Positions 9,160 to 54,600 of a DNA stretch of 64,000 nt are shown piece by piece. The translations under genes and the position numbers were made by a program. Source of the DNA: Thysanoteuthis rhombus (Eukaryota; Mollusca; Cephalopoda; Oegopsida; Thysanoteuthidae). The notes beneath the pieces are model-generated. The model saw only the letters and a list, made by a program, of their open reading frames with translations. It made no database searches and was not told the DNA's origin. Every line of letters begins with the position of its first letter. Position 1 is the stretch's first letter. The DNA is taken from assembly GCA_963457665.1 (NCBI GenBank), contig OY735207.1, positions 62,083,888-62,147,887 of the forward strand, given 5' to 3'.

Positions 9160-12100
9160 TCAGCTCAAAAACTCAGAAAAAAAAAAAAGAAGAAAGGCAT
9201 AATTTTTTTTTTATGGTTACATATATTTCAGACCATATGTACTCATAAACATTAGTAACCTTAATAAGGTCTGAGATATCTACAAGGATCCTTATTGATA
9301 GAAGCTCAATCATATTCTATTTTCATTAAAGGCTTGTTTTTTTTTCACTTCATATATCAAAGTGAATACCATACTATTTGTAATTCTCATAGATAATACG
9401 AGTACTACATTTATGTGAAAAATAGAGGTAACCTTTTATATAAACAAAGGTACTCCAGTTGGCAGTCCTACATGATTTTCTGTTTTATTGTTCCAAATTA
9501 GTGAACTGCAATACCTCAATTTTGATTTCATTGAATAAAGTAACACAAGAAAAACAAAAAAAAACAAAAAAAAATGAATACTAACTTTAATATACTGTGA
9601 GCACTCAATTTGAAGTAATGCTTTATAAATATAGTTATTTTCCAATACAATTATTTCAATATACTATAGTGATTTCTTGGCTATTTGTCTTGCAAATGTT
9701 TCACTGGAAGAAAATAAATATTGTGATCCTCAGAAATTATGGTCAATCCCTCCAACCCTTAGCCGTGCACCAGAGCTCTAGAGAAGAAAAACTCAAATTG
9801 AAAAAAATGAAAATTTCATTCATTTCATTTTTACAGTTGGTTAGCTGCGTAAATTAAATATATTTCTTAGTGGAATAGAATGGAGAGTAGTATTACCTCT
9901 GACATCAAATGGCCTATAAAGCTTTCCAACAGATATGTTTAGTGGGAGTGAATGGGGAATTGCATCACCTTCATCATCAAATGGTCTATAAAGCTTAGTA
10001 ACGAACAAAATCTTTTTTTACAAATATTTGAGTATAGCATTTTTGCTCAGATTTAGGTAGAAAATTTTTTGTGCCATACGCAAAGAAATATGGTAAGTAG
10101 CTCATTTCTCTATCTTCCACTTGCCATAACAAAAAACTTTGGGAAGGATAGATATCTTGAGGTCAAAATTGGATTTTCTGAGCACAGTGAACAACCATGG
10201 CCACCAAAAGGTGACAAAGCATTCTGTTCCTTTTTATATGTGCATATGTTTACATAATCCAGCATACCTGGCCATACCGTCTTGTCTACAGACCTGAAAA
10301 TTGGTATCCACCCACCCCCATTATTTTTTTCACAAAATGATTTTGACCTTTTGAGGGCCTTATTTTGACTGATTTAATAACATCTAGATTCTCAAGGAAA
10401 AACAAGTAGAAACACTTAGATTCTCCAGAATCTACATGTTTCTGCACATTTTTTTTTACTCTCTCTTTTTAGATGTTTTCCAAGAAGATACACCAGTGAT
10501 GTTATCAATAGAATTTGTTCTGACCACATTTAGATAGGAAAATGAGCTACTTACCAAATTTCTTAACTTCAAATTTAACGCTACAGTTGTTTAATTATTG
10601 ACAGCAATGGCAAGTTCTTTTTTTTTATGGGGAGTGCATTCACACTGAGCAGACAATCAGATTAGATTGTTTATTTTAATGAAGAAAACATACATTAAAT
10701 TTCTTTTTTTTAATCAAAGTGACCACTGCTTCATTCAAGGTTAAGGTGCAAAGGCAGATGCATTTGCTTTGAATAACAAAAAAGATAACATTTTTAGAGT
10801 GAAGATGTCAACTTTCAAAATTGAGAGAATTCATATTTATTTCCACATTTCTCACCTGGAGGAAAGAAGAAAATGAACTGACTGAAATTTTGAGGTGAAA
10901 AAAAAAAAAAAAAAAGATAGCAGATCTTTATATACAAAACCCAGCAAATATCCATTTGTTATTGTCTTCTCATGTGCAATATCATGTTTTTTGAAAAGAA
11001 AATAATAACCAGTTCCCAAAGATTTTCAGAGACTTTGAAATCATTTTTCTAATGTCATACATGTTTCAAAGTAAAAATAATTCGATTAACTTCTTCCAAA
11101 CCATACAGATCCATTATGTACTAAACGCAATCAAGTGAACGATTTTAGCTAATTATTAACATTGTTGAAATGAAGCTTATCTTAAAACAACTTCATTTGT
11201 TTGGACTTACATTTAAATAGAGATGAAAAATTACCATCTAAGATGAAGTCATTAAAACTGTATAAACAAAGATTCATGTTTTGGGTTTTTTTTCAAATCA
11301 TGTCTATAAATAGTTGATTCTTTGACATTCTAGAGGCCAAATTACCAACCTGTATATTTTAGAGTATGTGCACAAAATATACATCAGAAATAAACACACA
11401 TTTATGCACACAAATTCATGAACTTATATAATTTGCCAAATAACTCAATATTTTCTGTATCATTTGTCAAGGGAGACAACTATTGAATTTTGATTAGAGA
11501 GTAAATTTCCTAATTCATTTACTCCGAAAGTATATAAAATATCCAGGTTCACTCTAGTCGCACATCAACAAGAAAATGTAGAACAACAATAACAATGTTG
11601 ATATCTTCAAGTAAAATGCAATTGCAAAATTATCTAAATATTGCTGCCATTTCCAGATGGCATAGATTGTCATAAATGAAGGAATTTAAACACAAATTAT
11701 ATGAAATTTCATTTTTTATTCATTTCCATTTTTACAGAATCTGAATAACGCAAATACCATTTTGTGCCGACTGTCAGTTGTTTAAATGTTTTAAAAGAAA
11801 AAGTTAAAAATTTATCACGGCAGTATTTTAATGAAAATACGTCATACAAATTCTTATTATACATTGAATTAATAGAACTGGTTTCCTCATCCTGGTTGTT
11901 ACAATGACAATGTTTCTGCCATTGTATTCTCTGACCTTCTTCGGGTGCTTGTCATATTCGGTAATGTTCTTGGAATTTCAATCCAAACCCTTTATTCAAT
12001 CCACAGGGGTAGAGTATCCTCATTCTGCTTCCCAGGCTAGAGAATATTTCGTACTTGTTAATTAGTCAAGATTTGTCAATTGTCTCAAAACTTTTGATTC

Positions 12101-25459: not shown

Positions 25460-25579
25460 TGTTATGGCCAAATTGCGTTGGATACACTGGTTTTCATATA
25501 ATCACTGAAGCTGAGCAATGTAGAGCTTGGTCAGAACTCGGATGAGGGACCAACTTAGTATACCAGGTGTTGTAAGCAG
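25460..25579 (+). pseudogene. 5S rRNA pseudogene or 5S-derived SINE head
   Basis: The segment aligns by eye over the full 5S length. It begins TATGGCCA, then GCGTTGGATACACTGGTTTT (where 5S has GTTGAAAACACCGGTTCTC), ATCACTGAAGCTGAGCAATG (A box region), CTTGGTCAGAACTCGGATGA (C box region), and TACCAGGTGTTGTAAGC at the end. Most differences are C to T or G to A transitions, as expected for a decaying copy. The unrelated tail at 25580-25740 could be the body of a 5S-headed SINE; with one copy here this cannot be decided. Confidence 0.75.
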
Positions 25580-28966: not shown

Positions 28967-29306
28967 ATAACTCATTGTATATCTCTGAATTTTTGAGATG
29001 AGGTATCATTATTATTTCTATTATTATTCGGACCATCCTCATTAACACATAGTGTAGTGGTTACAGAATCAGACAAAATTACTGCAAGTAATCTGATGGT
29101 TCTAGGTTCAATCCCAGTGTGAGACAATAATAATACTACTAATGCTAAGAAGGGAGTGTGGTCAATATACCCCCGTTGGTTAAAAAAAGGGTATGGTTCG
29201 TTACTTCCCACACCTACCTGATGAAGGCTGTAGAGTACAACGGCTGAAATGTATGAAAAACAACCAAGATGAGGATGGTCCAAATAAAAATAATAACTCA
29301 TTGTAT
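28967..29306 (+). mobile_element. Fold-back SINE, copy 1, with 14-bp target duplication
   Basis: Direct repeats ATAACTCATTGTAT at 28967-28980 and 29293-29306 flank a 312-bp element. In order it has an AT-rich 5' segment; ATTTCTATTATTATTCGGAC (29014 onward), which is the reverse complement of its own 3' tail; a tRNA-like head with TAGTGTAGTGGTTA (A box) and GGTTCAATCCC (B box); a unique middle with TACCCCCGTTGG and GGTTCGTTACTTCCCA; the hammerhead-like core CTGATGAAGGC...GGCTGAAATG; and the 3' tail GATGAGGATGGTCC. The target duplication indicates retroposition. Confidence 0.75.
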
Positions 29307-38326: not shown

Positions 38327-38360
38327 CATGTTTCAGGATTCTTCCCATCATCAGTGGTGT
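38327..38360 (-). ncRNA. Hammerhead-like core in the Penelope 3' region
   Basis: The minus strand reads CCACTGATGATGGGAAGAAT then CCTGAAACATG. CTGATGA, a short GGGA/TCC stem II and GAAAC fit the conserved hammerhead core. The expected cleavage triplet after a CAT/ATG stem III is not clean (ATGGAC), so activity is doubtful. Confidence 0.45.
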
Positions 38361-38774
38361 GTGCTGTGTGATTGTGTATTAAAATGTACCATGTGGAACC
38401 AGAGTCCACTATCAGGAGCTATGCATTGTGGGTAAATTGTGTTGTTAGGGCTGCTGGAGGCCTCCTGCTGAGTGGGAGAATGTCCAGTAAGGTATCAGGT
38501 CTTTGGTTAAGCAGTAGCAGTTGGTCTTGGGGAGTGATGTCGAGTTAGATTTTTTGGTATGTTAAGGGTAGTGTAAATGGAGGGGTGGTGAGGTCAAGGA
38601 GCTACATAGGTATCAATCTTATAAGTTATTGAAAATGTGTTGGCTATGATTTGGACAGGGGTTACAACTGGCTAAGGTGAAATTTTCCTATGGGTCTGGG
38701 TGACTTTGAAGCTTCCATTATTGAATGTGTCTTAGATGTGGGTGTGAGGATATTAATGGTAGGAGTTTTGTGTA

Positions 38775-39809
38775 TTAGGGTTCTTTGTGATGAGGGTTGT
38801 TCAGTTTAGTGTTTAATCCATTAGGATATAGGGTTTTAAGTTTATTGATCCACATATCTTCGTGTTTCTCTAGAACTTTAGTTATGTCAATTGTAGTAGT
38901 TTTTTCTATTTTTTCTATGATGGTAAAGCTAGCGTCAGTGGCAAAATTGTGGTCAGGTGCGCGAAAGTGTAGTTCAACGGGAAGTGGGCTACGATTGTTT
39001 TTTGACTTAATCCTATGTCTATAATTGTTGAGTCTAATATTAAATTGCCACTCGGACTTGCCTATGTGCTGTAACTTACATCTATTGCACTCTAGAAGGT
39101 ATATAATGTTCTTACTGCGGCAGTTGGTATTGTGATATATGTGGTAACTCTCTTTTATGGTAGTGCTTGTGAATTTGTTGGTGTACTTGAGGTGGTTGCA
39201 ACATAGACTGTTTCTTATGTTGCAAGGTGTGTAGAATTTAATGGTTCTAGGTGTATTTTTGTGTACGACTTTATTGTCAACAATATTATTGCTACGAATG
39301 ATGTCTCTGTTTCTGGGTCTGCGGTAGGTGATGACACATGGGTCTGTTAATGTTTCTCTTAAGTCTGTTTTAATCGTGAGAATGTTCCATCTCTTATTGA
39401 TGATGTGTGCTAAGGGTGGGAGTGTGTTGAAGGTTGTTATAAGGGGTATGCAGTTAGGTTTGTTATTGTGGGACAGTATAAGGGTTTCATCTCTGGGTAT
39501 TCCAGTTGCTTTTTTTATTTGGTTTTTGGTGTCATCTAGCAGATAACCTCATTGGATGAAGTATTGTATTAGGTTATGTTTGTGTCTGTTAAGTTCACTA
39601 TTAGTAGAGCAGATTCTTCTAATTCTAAGGGCTGGTGAAAATGGTAGGCTTCTTTTTAAGTGTTTGGGATGGGCTGATTTAGAGTGGAGGTAATTGTGGG
39701 TGTCCGTGGGTTTAGTGTAGAGGGTAGTTTGGAGGTTTCTGCTGTCATCTATGTATATGCGGGTGTCTAAGAAGGCTATGGAGTCAGTGGATGTCGTGAA
39801 GTCAAACTT
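38775..39809 (-). pseudogene. Penelope-like RT (C-terminal) plus GIY-YIG endonuclease ORF, one stop
   Basis: One frame of 345 codons ends in TAA at 38777-38775 and has a single internal TGA at 39551-39549. From its start it reads SIAFLDTRIYIDD, typical of the thumb-side end of Penelope RT, then YTKPTDTHNYLH. The endonuclease has IIYLLECNRCKLQHIGKSEW (about 39113-39045), where IIY and HIG stand for the GIY and YIG signatures. The C-terminus has WINKLKTLYPNGLN, a conserved Penelope end. No frameshift was found, which suggests a fairly recent insertion. The RT catalytic YADD-type part is missing because of 5' truncation. Confidence 0.85.
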
Positions 39810-39810
39810 A

Positions 39811-39816
<6 letters not shown>

Positions 39817-39849
<33 letters not shown>
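39817..39849. repeat. (TA)n microsatellite at the 5' border of the Penelope-like element
   Basis: Marks the truncated end of the element. Confidence 0.9.
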
Positions 39850-39851
<2 letters not shown>

Positions 39852-40144
39852 GTATATGTATATAGAAACACTTGGTGCTAAAATAAAACCATAATTATTT
39901 TAATTTTTTCTACTTCTAAATTTGCTGTATCTCTATGCATATACAATGCAAAAATTCAAATTTCATTATTATCTTGAATAAATTCATTACCATTTATGAT
40001 TGTATTACTAACAATGTCCATTACTGATGAGTTGATAAGTTGTCATGAGTTGAGTATTTTTATTAAGTATTGAAAATTTTCATAACAACTAAACTTTAAA
40101 CATTGACAATTGACGTAATATAAAGGGTTCAAATTTCAATACCC

Positions 40145-45606: not shown

Positions 45607-48600
45607 GTATTGTATATCCTTTAATGATATTGATTTGAATTTGCTGTACGTGATGTAGTGGTTGGATCACAGAAACTTATTAGTGATCTCTATTCTATTT
45701 CTTTTTAGGCTTGCTATTTCACTTAATACTATGGCCTATCAAACTGAAGAAAACAAACTATAGTGACACATATTTAAATATTGCTGGTATCTATGTCAAT
45801 CTATTTATACTACCTATAATATGCATTTAGAATAGGGTGATTATACTGACATTGCTTGCATCAATTCCCCACCACTGACAATCCTTTCTTCCTGATTTAC
45901 AATGAATTTCTGTAGCAAAATTATTAGCAATGCTTTTACGTTATACATACTTGCTTGCATTTATTTCTGATCCCTGAAAATCTCGTCTTTCTGATCTTTT
46001 AATGTATACAGCGTATATTAAGTAATGAAAATTGCTTTAACGATTTTCAGGTAAAAAAAAAAAATTGTATGCTCTTTGCAACTTTAAACTCTAAATATAT
46101 AAACTTTTTTCCCCCAAATTTGTTATTATTTTACACAGAATCTATAATGGTGCTAGGTGTGAAATTTTCTTGTTGGGATCATCAGTTTTTTACCATGTTG
46201 CTGCTTCAGGTTTTTAAAAACAAAATGGTCATATCGATATGACTCCCCAGTAGTGTTGATCAAATGCCACCTCCTTTTCAGCTATAATTTTAATATATAG
46301 CTCATGTCATACTACACATAGTTTATTTTATATAGGGTATTACCATAATATATTGTGAATGATATTTTACACTACATCTCATTGAAATTTTTGGAAACCC
46401 AGGCTTATATATCTAATCTCACCATCACAAACTAATGAGTGAGTTAGCGAAATTAGTTATTATTATTCATAGAAAACAATGCATTAAATAGGGTTACATT
46501 CTGGAGTTGAAAAAGTTATGGATAAAATCTTACAATTGTTTTAAAATTGAGGAAAAGTTTCAACCTCTCTTTTCTTATCAGTGTTTTCTGAATTTTTTTC
46601 TTGACATTGTGTGGGGGCTTTAAAATAAGTAACTCTTAAAAAAAAGCTAGCAAGATGACACCAAAGCAGACAATCACAACTTCACGAGCAGAAAACTCAA
46701 TATAGATGGCAATTAACACTCTGTCAGGATGCTGCAAAACTTACCTGTCATCTAACAGGTTCCAGGCTTTTTTCCAAACAGTTATGCAATTTTGACCAAT
46801 CACACTTGAAACAAGAGTAAAAAAAATTCCCATCTCTGGACTCTATCACTCATCAAGTGTGGAGATGGTTGTCTCTCTCTCTCTCTCACACATTCACCTT
46901 TTGGCTGCATTATATGCACACTACTACACATCATCACTAAGGCAAGTAAGAACTTACAAACTCATCCTCCATTAACAGACGCCTACATACAAACCTATAA
47001 CAGTAACTTCGAGTTTCAACTTTTATTTAAATGTTTCTCAAGACTGGAGCTCGTAAAAGGAGGTGTGTGATACATAACATAATGAAATATATATATAAAT
47101 AATATGAATTGAAGGATTTGCTACACAAACATGTTTGATTCTGCCCTATTTGGGTTCCTCAGGCAAATGATTTGATTTATTTTAGATCTCTATTTTGGAC
47201 GTTTTTGGGGTGTCTATTTTTCTAGGGTGGAGAACCTTCTTCTATTTATATGTCTTTTTTTTCTTTTGTTTAGTTGTTGGTCACTGCTTGTTATATTTTT
47301 CTGTTTTACATAGTGGAAATACTTTACTGTCTGGTAGTTATAAATTAGCAGGAAATAGTGTCGGCACTTTCTTCATCAGTATGTCGTTAAAACATCAGCT
47401 CTGATATGTTTCCTCTCTGATAGTATTTTATTCTAACTCAATGTTGAATGTATTGAACACTTCATAAAATAAACCCATCACACGTCAGATATTGCATTAT
47501 ATCATATTGTATTCTTGACTTGTATTGTGTGTATATGTATATACATTTATATATTTGGGAGAGAGAGAAACTCTCGGGTTTGCCTTGTGGCACTGAGCTG
47601 AGGAAATGTTTTTGTTGCATTATCTAAGATAGCAGTGGATGTAGTAAAAGTTTGATTTGAAGGTCTTATATACTTTTTTGATCTGGTTTTGAATGCAATT
47701 TGAATTAGTTTCAGCTGGTAATAGCTAATCTAAAGATTTTTGTTGGTTTTAAATTCTGGATTGTTTTTAATTCTAAGACGTCTTAGATTCTTCATTTTTC
47801 AGTGTGCTAAGCCATGATTATTTCATGCTGCATACGAATTGGTTAAAATTTAAAAAAGTGTTGAGTTTTAATGATTGAAATGATGTTATCTAGATCAAAT
47901 GGATACTTGATTAATCTTGAAACTGTTTTCTCTTGTCTTTGAATTTTGCAGCAATTTCATTTGCCATTGTCAATTACAATGGTACATCTGGTCACAAAGT
48001 TCTTGCTAGCCTGGTTTGTACGTTCCATCTGGCAGATTAAGTCTAAACAAGCTCGCATCGAGCTCACCTGGATACCTTACTTAAAACGTGTAGCGCCACC
48101 TGGTAAGTGTTAAACTTTGATGCATTATGAGACACTAGCTGAAAATCTGTCCAATGGGTAGTTTTTTCCACTTTGAACATTTTATTTTAATCATACCTTA
48201 TATATCATGAACTGTCAGATCACATTTAATCAGGTATTTAACAAAAGGTAGATGAATTATACTTTGTTTTTTTTGGGGGGGGAATTTTTCAAGAAATAAT
48301 CTGCTATGCTAAAAACACGCGTTGAAAAATAGGGATATATTGTGTTGTTCCTGAGTTGCACTGTCACATACAGACATAGATATTTTGCGAATTATAGTAG
48401 GATTCAGTTTTCTTATGAATATTGTTGAGAATAGTCTAGTATTTTAAACTTTTAGTAAAATGAAAGAGTTTTGAGTTTAAGTCCAAATTTTTATTTAAAA
48501 TTGTGTTGCTGAATCTAATCTGTTGAGAAAACCTTCCTCCAGTTAATATTAACTTTTAGGTGTGAAAACCGGAAATTTCTGTCATTGCAGTTCTATGCCA

Positions 48601-51600
48601 AACTCAATAAAAAGAAAGAGAATGCAGTAGAATACAAAATGCCACTCACTGTAGCATTTTTAGACTTCAAGAAGGCATTCAACTCTGTAGAAATTCCCAT
48701 GGTCATGAAAGCCATCACTCTACAAGGTGTAGATCCTGTATATATCAAAGTGCTGCAACATATATACAATCACAACAACTCTTCTATCAGGCTACATAAA
48801 GACTCTGAACTCTTCCAGCTCCCAAAAGGAGTAAGACAAGGTGATACCAGCTCACCCAAACACTTCACAGCCTGCCTTGAGATGATCTTCTGAAACCTGG
48901 ACTGGGAGAATAGAGGAATCAAAATGGACGGCAAATATCTGAGCAACCACAGATTTGCAGACGACATCATCCTTTTCGCAGAGAACTTCAACTAATGCTA
49001 GATGAATGAAACAAAGAAAGCAAAAGAGTTGGCCTACACATGAACTTCCATAAAATGAAAGTCATGTGCAACAACCACATTGAGAATAAAAAATAAGAAC
49101 ATAACTGTCAAAATCAAAGATGCTAAATTCGGGAAAGTAGACCACTACATTTACCTAGGACAACAAATCTCTATGAAACCCACAAAAGAAGAAATCAAGC
49201 AGAGAATAATCATGGCAAGTCTTCGGCAGAGCAAGCTCAACGTTTAAAAACAAGATGATCCCAATAATCCTAAAAAGAAGAGTATACAACCAATGCATCC
49301 TCCCAATAGTCACTTATGGAGCTGAAACATGATGATGACTTCATCTTTAAAATGACAGGATAGTGAGACAAAAAACAAAATGTAATGATTGGAGTAGATA
49401 TGTTGAAAGGATGCATTGCTTAGCTGCAGGTTGCTGTGGCTGAATTGGTCAAGACATCATCCTTGAAAGACTCGCTTCTATAATATGGAATATAGGCTGA
49501 GAGTTCAAGTCTTGTCAAAAGTTACTTCTATTCCATGCCACTTATTTTAGCAATTACATTGTTTTGATAGAAAGAAACAATAAGATAAGATTCCAAAGAC
49601 TTGTCAAGAGTTTAGTCTTATATTGTCTGAATTTCTTAGATGGAGTATTTATCAGTATTAAATTTTAATTAGCCCCCCCCCCCTATCATTTTATTACAAT
49701 GCTTGGATTGTTTTTACATTTATTTGATGGGAATGAAATAAGCTTCCAATGAAGCCTATTGTCCTGGAACAGTACTTTGCAGATTAGGCTATGAAAGCTA
49801 ACCAGCAGGAGCCATTCAAAGTTAGCCATATAACAATATTGTTAAAATATATACTGTTATATGCAGTCTTTTATTATTGAGCTAAGAGTACAATCATTAA
49901 AAAAAAAGCGTGAAAAATATTACTCTCTGAAATCACTTCAGCTTTGCAAGTGGAAGGAAGTATTGTTTTTAAATCCAAATAATCTCTCTCCATCTCAGTT
50001 CAGCTTCTTATATGCTTGAAACTCGTGTACCATTGTGCAATAAACCAAGATAGTATTTCACTCAATGCTAGTTTGAGTTATGCCCACTGTTATTTGTACA
50101 ATTCACTTTAATTACCAGAGTACTTTCCATCCAAGTGATTCTCTGAGTAAAGTGAAATATGATATTATCTTTTTATCTTTGTGTTTGGCAGTTTCTGACT
50201 ACATTGTGACACTTCAGATTTATTTCCAACGTTAATGTCCGTAATCTTTTGACTTCTAATTTCAATCCTTCCTGTGTTTTCTCATGACAGGTATCATCAG
50301 TGCTCTGGACATTGGCTTATCAAACTGGAGCTTTGAATTTATCACAGTTTCTTTGTAAGTTTTGAGAATCTTTGTGTGCACGCATATCCCCTTTCATATA
50401 TGTCACTTCCAGTTTTTGCATTTCTGTTTTCTTGGAAATATCTCTTGTAGACCGATGAGCCAATTCCGTAAATTCCTGCTAAGCTTTGCATGCATCTCAT
50501 CTCTTGGCCTATACTGATGGAATCCAAAAGTCATCACTGGTTCCTTCCTAATTAATGGTCCCACAAGCTATTAATGCTGATACTTGATCTGCTGATTGAG
50601 TTATCTGAGCATAATATGTGGGCATATTCCTTCAACTTACTTATTCATCAATGTCCTCCCCCTGTCTCCTGGCATCCCCTGTTATTATAGGTTGTTGTTG
50701 TTCAAGAAAGATAATGGTGTTATAACAGTTGTGATAACTACAAAGTTGTTATGGCCAATATTTGAGGGTGGGTGATAGATGAAAGACAGCAAATACCGTT
50801 TATCAGAGGGGTCAGCAACAGGTGGGCCATTGACGTGTTTCTTGTGGGCCATGGGTTTTGAGCCTTTTCTAAAAAATATTCCAGTTTTATGTATTTGGGG
50901 GCCATTAAGTAGTTGATGAAAAAAAAAAATGTTCATTGACTACAAATGTTTTTGCTTAATTCATTTCATTTTTGCAGTTGCTTTGCCAGTATGTCAGACA
51001 TATTTCTTACTGGGAGTAAGGTCGGGGTTGTTATCTCTGTCATCAAATGGACTTACAGTATAGTAAATTAGTGCTCAGCCCAAAATATTGGGCTTATAGG
51101 TTCAAAGTGTGATTCTGTTCTTTCATTTACGGTTTTCTATATGAGTAGTCAATCATGTAGGTGGAAGTTTTTTGGTCCACCAACTATTCGCCTTATATTG
51201 TGAACTACACTTTGATGAGCTCCTTTATATCGAGGGGTTCCTGTATCAGACTTCATTCCCTGAAGGTCAGTGTGCCTCCCTCTCCTCAACGCATGATCAG
51301 CTGTTCCAGTTTTCAAAGTGTCTCCGCATGTTCAACTTTCTGTGTTCCTCAAGTCTTATCTTTTGTGTGTAGCTGGTCTTGCATCTAACAAAATCCTGAC
51401 AAAAACTACAGTAGTATATCTCGGAATTTTTGAGATGAGGTATTATTATTATTTCCATTATTATTCGGACTATCCTCATCATTGTTATACTGCCTCACAC
51501 TAGGATCGAACCTAGTTCGATCCTAGTGTGAGGCAGTATAACAATACTACTAACGCTGAAAGAGGGAAGTACGGTCGATATACCCCCGTCGGATAAATAA

Positions 51601-54600
51601 AGGGTTCGGTTCGTTACTTCCCAAAAATCTCCCAGATGTTACCTGACGAAGGCCGTAGAGTGCAACGGCCGAAACGTTGTATGAAAAACAACAAAGATGA
51701 GGATAGTCCGAATAATAATGGAAATAAAAACTACAGTAATCCCTCCATTTTCATGGACTTTAAATTCAAGTGCAAATTTTTACTTCAAATGTTTTGTTTA
51801 CATATGTCATAAGATTCAAGTTCTCTGTATACAAAATTAAAAAATATCTCCAATTGTATAAGGTGTACACAAATAATTTTCATCCCATATTTTTGCCAAT
51901 CTTTCCTCTATTAAGTTTTATACAACTTTGACTTCTGAATCTTCTGAAATCAAATTCTTTCGAAGTGGTGGGGAAAAAAGCATTTTTAGAACTTGAATTA
52001 ATCAAATCATTCAAATGAAATGGAAAAATATGCAATTTGGAAGATGATATTTGCAATATATTAATTCTTTGACAAAAGGAAAGACTTTATATTTACTATA
52101 TGGCTTTGGAGATCTGCACTGCATATGATGAAAGAATGAATTATCGGAGAAGGAATTGTTATTTGGCGACATCATTGTAAGCCTTCCTAAAAAGCAGTTT
52201 TCAATTATTTATTGTTCTTTGCAAAATGTTTTTTTTTTATCTACTGCACCCCCAATACATGATATGATTCTGAAAATTGTTTCTTTCTTTTATTTTCTAT
52301 ACAGGTATACCATGTGTAAATCAACAGCTGTTATTTTTATACTGGGATTTTCTCTATTATTTAAATTAGAAAAATTTGTAAGTAATCTCCATTTAAAAAA
52401 ATTCATTTCACATTTGCTTCTAAATATATACTTGCATAGGCAGTTATGTATGAATTCTTGGTGTGTAGCTGGTCTCGCATCAAAGAAAATCCGGACAAAA
52501 ACTACAGTGGTCCCTCCAATTTCATGGAATTCAAATACAAATGCAAATTTCTACTTCAAATGTTTTGTTTACATTTGTCACAACATTTAAATTCTTCATA
52601 TTCATTTGTGCATGGGAATAGCATGCAGTCATTTTACAATCCATTGAGAACAAAATGTACTCATTTTAACTTTATTTTCCAAGAGACCTCAACTAAAAAT
52701 GTTTTTTGAATAATTAAAATTGTTGTGAGAATTTTTCTTCTCACATTATTTTTCTGGCAGGAATTTTTTTTAAATATAAATTAATGCTAATCACTTCGCT
52801 TCATGTCATTACAGAAGGTTTCATCAGAAGGTACTTCTTTCAGATAGTGGGTCCATCTGTATAGATATTATATAAAATATATATAAAAACAAATATTTAA
52901 TTTATTCATTTCCTTTTCTTTTTCTTTTTTTTTCAGCGACCATCTTTAGTTTTGGTTGTGTTTTTTATATCTGGAGGGTTGTTTCTCTTCACTTTCCATT
53001 CTACACAGTTCCACCTCATTGGCTTCATCTTGGTAATGTCTGCAACATTTTTATCTGGTCTTCGATGGACGCTTACACAAATCATGGCCAACCGCAGTGA
53101 AATGGGTTTGTATATATAATCTTTTATTTTTTTCTTTTCTGAAATTTCGTTTGTGTATGAGAGATGGAGGTGTATTTGAAGTACAGGAGTTTTTCTCAGT
53201 AACTTTAGATCTTTTGGTTCACTTTTATGGTGATTCACTTGCAACTGACGTGGAACCAACTTAGAATCACAATGAATTAGCGATAGAAAGAGCAATATGA
53301 AGGATAACCATAAGAGATGGAAAAGATTGGCATAGATCTGTGGGCAGACCAGGTTGAGAGATATTATACAATCAAGTAAGAGAAATGGTGTTGGACTGGA
53401 CAATCGAATATGTTTTATTGTTAGGTCAGGGTCAAATTAAGGGTACAGTTTAGCATTATTGCTACATTATTTAAACCCCTTCTTATAAAACCTTTTGATA
53501 TTTCCTTTCTCAAAATTGAAAACTTTCGTCAAGGTTTGAAGGTCTAATAGACTGGAAGCATAAGATTAGAAGAAAATCTTAAATTGAAATTTTCCCTGTC
53601 TGGGTTTTGAATTCAGTCTGCTGATCATACTTATCTCATTTCTATACTCTGGTGTATTGTTGCTTTCATTGATTTCTTTAGCAATAAAAGTAATTTTCTT
53701 GTGAGCATGAATGCAACCTAAATGTGTGTGATATAGGTAAATTGAGACATGCTGATTTTAAATATGCCTTTGTTTTTTTCTGTGATGCATAGTTCTCAAC
53801 TTTTAAGAGTACAAACATACACACACTAACATATACATGCACACACACACACATTACTTACTGCTTCATAATAGAGAAGATAAGTAAATCTTCATTTTAA
53901 TGTTGCATAAGGATAATAATTTCCTTTTCCTCTAATCCAGTCAAGAATTAGAATTTGCCATGTCTCTTTTTTAAAATTTTATTTCCTCTTATTTTGCTTC
54001 ATTTTTTTCTCCCCTCTTCCAGGCCTTCGAAATCCTATTGACATGATGTACCATATTCAACCATGGATGATCTTGGGACTTCTGCCACTGTCAGCCACCT
54101 TTGAAGGTCAGGTTTATAAAACTCTCTCATTTTTATAAATTCTCTATCTCTGTGCTGTGTAATAAAAAGCTGAAATTATTTTGTGTGATGCTCCAAATAA
54201 CAAATACAATCTATTCTAAAATTTTTGAATACAGTCTTCAAAATCTTAAAGTTATTAAAATTAGGTTGCCAATGTTCTTGAAAATTGATAGGGAAGCCAT
54301 ATTCTCAAAAGCATCTCTGAATAATTGTACTAGCTCAATATACGCGACCCCCAGGTGGTTATCCCCAGCTATATGGAGTCATAGGCATAAAATATGGAGC
54401 CTACGGACATCAAGTTATGTAATTTAATTTTTTTTTTTTTTTTGGTAAAATGCAATTTCTAGGGAGAATGAATAAATATTTACAACTGAAATGAATTCTC
54501 GAAAACCATTTCATTGTAACTTGCCTCTGCAAAAATGTGATATAAGCCTTGATTTAATTGAGTGTAATGCAATCTCTGACCCTGTACTTTATGCAGGTCC

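Follow-up and report, generated by a model that had tools for sequence, protein, structure and literature searches.

Two short repeats in a squid genome carry the reverse complement of their own 3' tail at their 5' end, and the question that they raise is what kind of mobile element is built in this way and how such an end arises. They lie in a stretch of 64,000 nt of Thysanoteuthis rhombus (GCA_963457665.1, OY735207.1 62,083,888-62,147,887, forward strand), which we call the window. A sequence-only reading had described them as two copies with the same build and clean target duplications, and this we could confirm: copy A (28967-29306) is flanked by an exact duplication of 14 bp and copy B (51401-51738) by an exact one of 13 bp. 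The tail pattern was found four times in the window at up to three mismatches, compared with a chance expectation of 0.01. The inverted repetition of the tail was confirmed too. The top inverted-arm scores were 16 in copy A and 32 in copy B, above the maximum of 10 reached in 100 shuffles of each copy, and the arm agrees with the 3' tail of its own copy at 31 of 31 positions in B and at 22 of 26 in A. The same reading had put the inverted termini at about 30 bp; the arm is real, but it is about twice as long, its ~66 nt comprising the 3' tail and a further ~36 nt with no counterpart at the 3' end. The first 4 nt of this segment overlap the target duplication in copy A. In copy B, a perfect palindrome of 31 bp with a centre of 3 nt adjoins the inverted tail and replaces the 5' half of the tRNA-like head (table 1).

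Table 1. Position of the parts of copies A and B in the window (PLE, Penelope-like element; L118, a PLE copy described in the text).
Feature	Position	Strand	Remarks
Tail pattern, match 1	29024-29043	minus	
Tail pattern, match 2	29268-29287	plus	
Tail pattern, match 3	51461-51480	minus	
Tail pattern, match 4	51696-51715	plus	
Copy A, left target duplication	28967-28980		ATAACTCATTGTAT, 14 bp
Copy A, inverted 5' segment	28977-29042	minus	reverse complement of PLE frame start, begun at outer site
Copy A, tRNA-like head	29043-29125	plus	A box 29050, B box 29105
Copy A, remaining PLE 3' module upstream of hammerhead-like core	29126-29217	plus	from alignment to L118
Copy A, hammerhead-like core	29218-29253	plus	3 nt deleted after GAAA
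Copy A, 3' tail	29253-29292	plus	PLE frame start (ATGAAAAACAACCAAGATGAGG...), ends at inner site
Copy A, right target duplication	29293-29306		
Copy B, left target duplication	51401-51413		AAAAACTACAGTA, 13 bp
Copy B, inverted 5' segment	51414-51480	minus	begun at outer site
Copy B, palindrome of 3' half of tRNA-like head	51481-51545		arms 51481-51511 and 51515-51545
Copy B, remaining PLE 3' module upstream of core	51546-51642	plus	from alignment to L118
Copy B, hammerhead-like core	51643-51681	plus	CTGACGA ... GAAAC GTT GTA
Copy B, 3' tail	51681-51725	plus	PLE frame start, ends at inner site
Copy B, right target duplication	51726-51738		

We searched the genome (2.73 Gb) with two queries. Among 4484 first-look candidates for the full-length query, we scored 40 (L003-L042); this first sample favours full-length copies, since the query was itself full length. 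The other query was restricted to the body (29110-29266), without both ends, and gave 3194 candidates. The 40 scored among these, the end-independent sample, comprise 33 new copies and seven in common with the first sample (L003, L004, L011, L022, L025, L041, L042). Movement by retroposition, as originally proposed, was borne out, with retroposition, tRNA-type boxes, inverted tail and hammerhead-like core recurring together genome-wide. The copies are short and dispersed, and have a common 5' start, target duplications and the 3' end of a partner, as expected of a SINE.

This partner is a Penelope-like element (PLE). Two loci (L098 and L099) run on into a frame that resembles the end of a PLE protein, and the wider stretch around L098 (L103) holds a reverse transcriptase (RT) frame, whose match to RVT_1 (8.5e-6) falls below the Pfam cut-off and whose match among PDB sequences is weak (E 0.0045). 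A genome search with this frame gave 2724 candidates, of which 150 were scored. Locus L118 has an open frame of 865 codons with an RVT_1 match that passes the cut-off (E 2.4e-9), as does that of L117 (E 5.8e-8). The 3' end of L118, after the frame, is the module seen in the short copies, and the element has a 13-bp target duplication. The L118 stretch VYSIPCSCGHEYTGETCRPLKVRVEEHR looks by eye like a GIY-YIG endonuclease, with no Pfam match up to E 1; a search of PDB sequences with the endonuclease-like frame of L103 gave nothing convincing. Copy B (51512-51724) is identical to the L118 module at 208 of 213 aligned positions (97.7%), and the head, body and tail of copy A at 219 of 246. The SINE tails read as the N-terminus of the PLE frame, that of copy B once it is extended with its own inverted segment. 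In L118 and L104, we found a pseudo-LTR that includes the frame start and has an inverted 5' copy. An assignment of the SINE body to the C-terminus of the PLE frame proved only partly right: in L118 the tRNA-like head lies beyond the end of the frame, and it is the start of the frame that makes up the tail. These alignments identify the short unit as the 3' terminal module, or pseudo-LTR, of a PLE. Hence, the idea of a free-standing family was not borne out, given the match to L118 and the seven of 40 end-independent copies that continue into the PLE.

Other PLE copies were found as well. The window contains a second PLE fragment at ~38331-39899 (minus), part of which matches L118 (34.7% over 49 residues, E 9.7e-7). 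It has its own hammerhead-like core, then an open stretch from an ATG, and by its position it causes the strong GC skew at 38-40 kb. It gave no Pfam match up to E 10 and nothing convincing among PDB sequences, and no relatives were found by protein in viral contigs or in phages. Eight of the 150 scored PLE hits lie within 3 Mb of one contig (G000 contig C29, 47.59-50.59 Mb), and five of them have in-frame TGA stops and the same identity (88%), which would fit the local multiplication of a dead copy. One RT match (G000:C28:53875664-53876266, minus) lies within an open frame of 2213 codons, which could consist of tandem units read through the module, because the module is open in the PLE frame.

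What distinguishes this module is its tRNA-like head. The proposed tRNA promoter stands for copy A, which has A and B boxes free of mismatches and 55 nt apart, but only in part for copy B, where the A box is missing and the B box alone is present. Pairs of A and B boxes with at most one mismatch per box occur three times in the window, compared with none or one in each of eight shuffled windows. The other two pairs (17443 plus and 36848 minus) have similar sequences and are probably the heads of another SINE family without this tail. ARAGORN found no tRNA gene and no cloverleaf was recognised; the tRNA families of Rfam gave no match to copies A and B up to E 10. Among the end-independent copies, 26 of 40 start within 12 nt of the tRNA-like 5' end of the module, seven run on upstream into the PLE and seven are cut further inside. 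Since most copies start there, the RNA would begin at the tRNA-like 5' end, its predicted start being GTCCACATGGACACATAG. Polymerase III is the likely cause of this start, with RNase P trimming or stalling as alternatives, and we infer that it transcribes the module.

The rival explanation that best withstands these data does without SINE transcription: all copies would be 5'-truncated PLE insertions, many of them stopped at the tRNA-like fold by RNase P trimming of the PLE RNA or by stalling of the RT. It would account for the seven copies that extend into the PLE and the seven cut further inside, and it agrees with the absence of a tRNA gene according to ARAGORN and with the truncation of copy B itself within the head. 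The concentration of 26 of 40 starts within 12 nt of one point and the mismatch-free boxes of copy A argue for transcription from the head, although both are compatible with RNase P or stalling too. We regard truncation as unlikely and favour a module that is transcribed from its own tRNA-like promoter.

We then turn to the inverted 5' segment. It is present in all 40 copies of the first sample and begins at one of two fixed sites in the tail, an inner and an outer one, ~36 nt apart. In the first sample, the offset of its start is 0-3 in 33 of 40 copies, its inner end ranges from 37 to 96 nt and the head is trimmed by 0-22 nt. The segment precedes the tRNA-like 5' end, the usual starting point of the copies. 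Together, the fixed start, the inner end that differs between copies and this position suggest that it lies outside the RNA of the element, as it appears to do. This leaves unsupported the proposal of an RNA that pairs its own ends, given the variable inner end and the location upstream of the usual copy start. The joins between segment and head lack filler in 29 of the 40 first-sample copies, and 23 of these 29 overlap by at least three bases, compared with 3.2% for random joins; the other 11 have filler. In L042 the filler is PLE 3' UTR, and we rejected its interpretation as unrelated DNA. L014 (G000:C45:9027874-9028800) has two tandem inverted segments at its 5' end, the second of which starts from the outer site again, as a template jump would produce. 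In 20 of the 40 copies of this sample, a variable base was readable at each of the two ends, and in 18 of these the readings agree (Fisher p 0.0009). Hence, the segment is most simply explained as made at insertion, from the same RNA or from RNAs of one source.

How general the segment is depends on the query. With the full-length query it was universal, whereas in the end-independent sample 24 of 40 copies have an inverted segment from either fixed site and 14 have none by the rule used, one of which (L093) shows 12 nt from the outer site. The objection that most copies might lack it, leaving A and B as unrelated inversions, thus finds no support in these 24 copies. Some segments are long: in L115 the inverted part reaches a nearly full head-to-head copy, and parts of ~100 nt or more occur in L091, L092, L095, L108, L110, L115 and L116. 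Palindromic joins are present in copy B, L115 and L118. We rejected a DNA transposon, whose terminal inverted repeats should be constant at both ends: here each end has its own starting site, and the inner end is not constant.

The two ends of a copy begin at opposite sites. In the end-independent sample, 19 of 40 copies have the outer site at the 5' end and the inner site at the 3' end (eight and four new copies, and the seven in common with the first sample), and five have the reverse arrangement (L080, L087, L089, L096, L112). None of these 24 informative copies has both ends at the same site, which with fixed margins has p 2.4e-5, or 1.6e-4 without the seven shared copies. The remaining 16 are uninformative: the 14 without an inverted segment and two that start elsewhere (L094, L097). 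L075 is outer/inner by the rule, although by eye its end lies inward of the inner site. Two copies of the first sample were classed otherwise by the script, L006 as outer/outer and L012 as outer/other; by eye, the alignment overran the inner site into AT-rich flank. The 3' ends of 24 new end-independent copies cluster at ~24-45 and at 61-66 nt of the tail, as expected from the optional 30-40 bp tail of PLEs lying between two start sites of reverse transcription. The longer elements fit the same pattern: in L118 the inverted 5' module starts from the outer site and the 3' end lies at the inner one, and L104 and L117 show, by eye, the mirror arrangement. The alignments thus reveal fixed starts, variable joins and two ends at opposite sites. 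These opposite starts would link the two ends of single events, which adds to the published features of PLEs.

These observations bear on two further explanations. One holds that the inverted segment is encoded and inherited, or that it results from self-priming of the cDNA instead of priming on the second strand. Its presence in 40 of 40 first-sample copies would fit this, and the palindromic joins of copy B, L115 and L118 recall the PLE palindromes that have been interpreted as self-priming (PMC3846280). Yet the inner end differs between copies, 14 of 40 end-independent copies are without the segment and the two ends start at opposite sites. Furthermore, a snap-back of the cDNA 3' end would invert the 5' part of the RNA, while the observed segment starts in the 3' tail. 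We thus consider an inherited or self-primed segment very improbable. Even less credit can be given to a classical SINE moved by a LINE, in which the inversion would be LINE-style twin priming. The tRNA-type boxes, the target duplications, the (AAT)-rich 3' end and a LINE-like RT fragment in the window (RVT_1, 48519-48893) are what one would expect of it, but the 3' module is common to the PLE. In the commoner class, moreover, the inverted segment starts downstream of the point at which the direct part stops; judging from the known mechanism, twin priming on an RNA primed at its 3' end would not give this. The reading that we retain is priming on both target strands by a PLE.

The sequence-only reading had also pointed to a hammerhead-like core (CTGANGA..GAAAC), and this core is present, conserved and recurring genome-wide. 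A strict pattern (core, stem II of at least four pairs, GAAAC and GTH) was found in the window at 51643 plus (copy B) and at 38354 minus (the other PLE), and in none of 40 shuffled windows. Copy A fails it, having lost 3 nt beside GAAA. In an alignment of 41 rows (the 40 first-sample copies and copy B), the invariant core letters are kept in 37-41 rows and stem II is paired in 36-39. At the predicted cut, the G, T and A are kept in 40, 40 and 41 of the 41 rows. All 41 rows have an extra A between core and stem II, and stem I looks weak by eye. The hammerhead models of Rfam gave no match up to E 10 in copy A, copy B or the 3' end of the other PLE of the window. It is important to highlight that the conservation of the core may reflect coding or youth, because the core lies within the PLE frame. 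Self-cleavage of the module RNA is possible. Hammerhead mutants were reported to be without effect on PLE insertion in vitro (PMC11167929). We rejected the hammerhead cut as a general stop for the inverted segment, as longer segments exist: in four of 40 first-sample copies the inner end, even by its minimal estimate, lies beyond the predicted cut (81 nt). A retrozyme-like cycle, in which the hammerhead would turn tandem transcripts into circular templates for copying, draws on this conservation of core and stem II and on animal retrozymes with type I hammerheads, for which PLEs are proposed helpers (PMC7229834), but is very unlikely given the extra A in all rows, the lack of an Rfam hammerhead match up to E 10 and the start of most copies at the tRNA-like end and not at the predicted cut (though copies of a cut RNA could be missed, as the copies and both queries span this cut).

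Our preferred explanation, which we hold with good confidence, is that the 3' module of a PLE, equipped with a tRNA-like promoter of the Pol III type, forms a short non-autonomous retroposon, which is inserted by two-ended target-primed reverse transcription. An RNA would begin at the tRNA-like 5' end, pass the hammerhead-like core and extend into the first part of the PLE frame. The RT and endonuclease of the PLE would make staggered cuts in both target strands, and both target 3' ends would prime DNA synthesis on the module RNA, one at the inner and one at the outer site, ~36 nt apart. One cDNA would yield the direct copy and the other, usually shorter, the reverse-complemented 5' piece, before the two are joined, mostly at a few bases of microhomology. 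Two-ended priming with one site per strand is the simplest model; the supply of the PLE protein in trans, its action as a dimer with one start site per subunit and the order of the steps are what we infer around it.

Several steps have precedents in the biochemistry of PLEs. Both strands are cut and extended in vitro by the purified protein of a lizard PLE, which initiates synthesis within the RNA, near the frame start, at two neighbouring positions that delimit the genomic 'tail'; in bulk, no difference in start sites was reported between strands, and the later steps of integration were called yet to be validated (PMC11167929). In PLEs, inverted pseudo-LTRs (one with a 31-bp tail), pseudo-LTRs that include the first 12 codons and palindromic joins have been described, and pseudo-LTRs can move an unrelated gene in trans (PMC3846280). 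The PLE template is reported to need the first 172 nt of the frame (PMC11167929), whereas no more than ~80 nt of the frame start is retained in the SINE copies. Most of these are therefore expected to serve poorly as templates, and the RNAs that are copied should derive from loci with a longer piece of the frame start. We put forward a broader proposal tentatively, at slightly less than an even chance: PLE insertion would be two-ended, with a protein dimer that uses a different RNA start site on each strand and consumes one site per strand each time, and a PLE module that gained a Pol III promoter would have given rise to SINE copies in their thousands. These would preserve a record of the rule, serve as a natural assay of PLE integration and constitute the first PLE-mobilised SINE family.

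Other repeats in the window deserve mention. An older related family (11884-12063 minus, and loci L043-L072) has the body, core and tail in common, and a tRNA-like head was seen in none of the copies that we read. Its majority letters resemble the C-terminus of a PLE (RMRTIYPCGLNKGFG), and in some copies the outer tail is retained in direct orientation. The family may be an older PLE 3' end: a sensitive local search gave E 0.002, but none of its 30 loci matched the PLE protein of the window at 1e-2. A 5S rRNA-like stretch at 25460-25578 (plus; 55.2 bits, above the Rfam threshold) is possibly a 5S pseudogene or a 5S-derived SINE. The RT fragment with a LINE-like look is on the plus strand (RVT_1 E 2.6e-7). 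The tail pattern also occurs once in one viral and once in one bacterial contig, which we treated as chance, since the blastn matches of copies A and B and the related family to these contigs are confined to 21-36 nt at the pattern.

LINEs are usually named as the elements that mobilise SINEs (for example PMC8010984). Ours is probably a SINE family built from a PLE and mobilised by a PLE and, if so, it would widen this picture of SINE mobility. The inverted end would be a scar made anew at insertion, which records how PLEs, a little-understood class of mobile elements, write into DNA. With thousands of candidate short insertions whose ends can be read, PLE integration becomes testable by counting: which strand was primed where, how the two cDNAs join and whether the hammerhead cut matters. 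As to novelty, the sequence-only reading knew of no described family with this combination. Hammerhead motifs, 'tails' and inverted pseudo-LTRs have been published for PLEs (PMC11167929, PMC3846280). In a limited literature search, which left out Repbase and key papers on PLE hammerheads and PLE diversity, we found neither a SINE moved by a PLE nor a PLE with a tRNA-like promoter. Within that literature, the features of PLEs are already known singly; we found no description of a SINE family formed by a tRNA-headed PLE module, or of the opposite-site rule.

Among known systems, SMalpha of Schistosoma is a SINE-like element with a type I hammerhead, and differs in that the available description mentions no PLE module or inverted tail (PMC8490949). 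Metazoan retrozymes are also small and non-autonomous, with a hammerhead motif and a PLE as proposed helper; theirs are tandem repeats expressed as circles (PMC7229834), whereas here single modules are dispersed and have a tRNA-like start. The tRNA-derived SINEs are similarly short and dispersed, with A and B boxes, target duplications and a 3' end shared with an autonomous partner (PMC10886601, PMC5753468), but in the squid a PLE takes the place of this partner, and its 3' end contains the complete unit together with the head. Penelope/Poseidon-type PLEs share with the squid elements an RT frame, a pseudo-LTR with the frame start and a hammerhead-like motif therein, an optional tail of 30-40 bp, an inverted 5' pseudo-LTR, palindromic joins and target duplications (PMC11167929, PMC3846280). 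The opposite-site rule is absent from the descriptions available in these two sources, and it is the squid module that has a tRNA-like head and thousands of candidate short copies.
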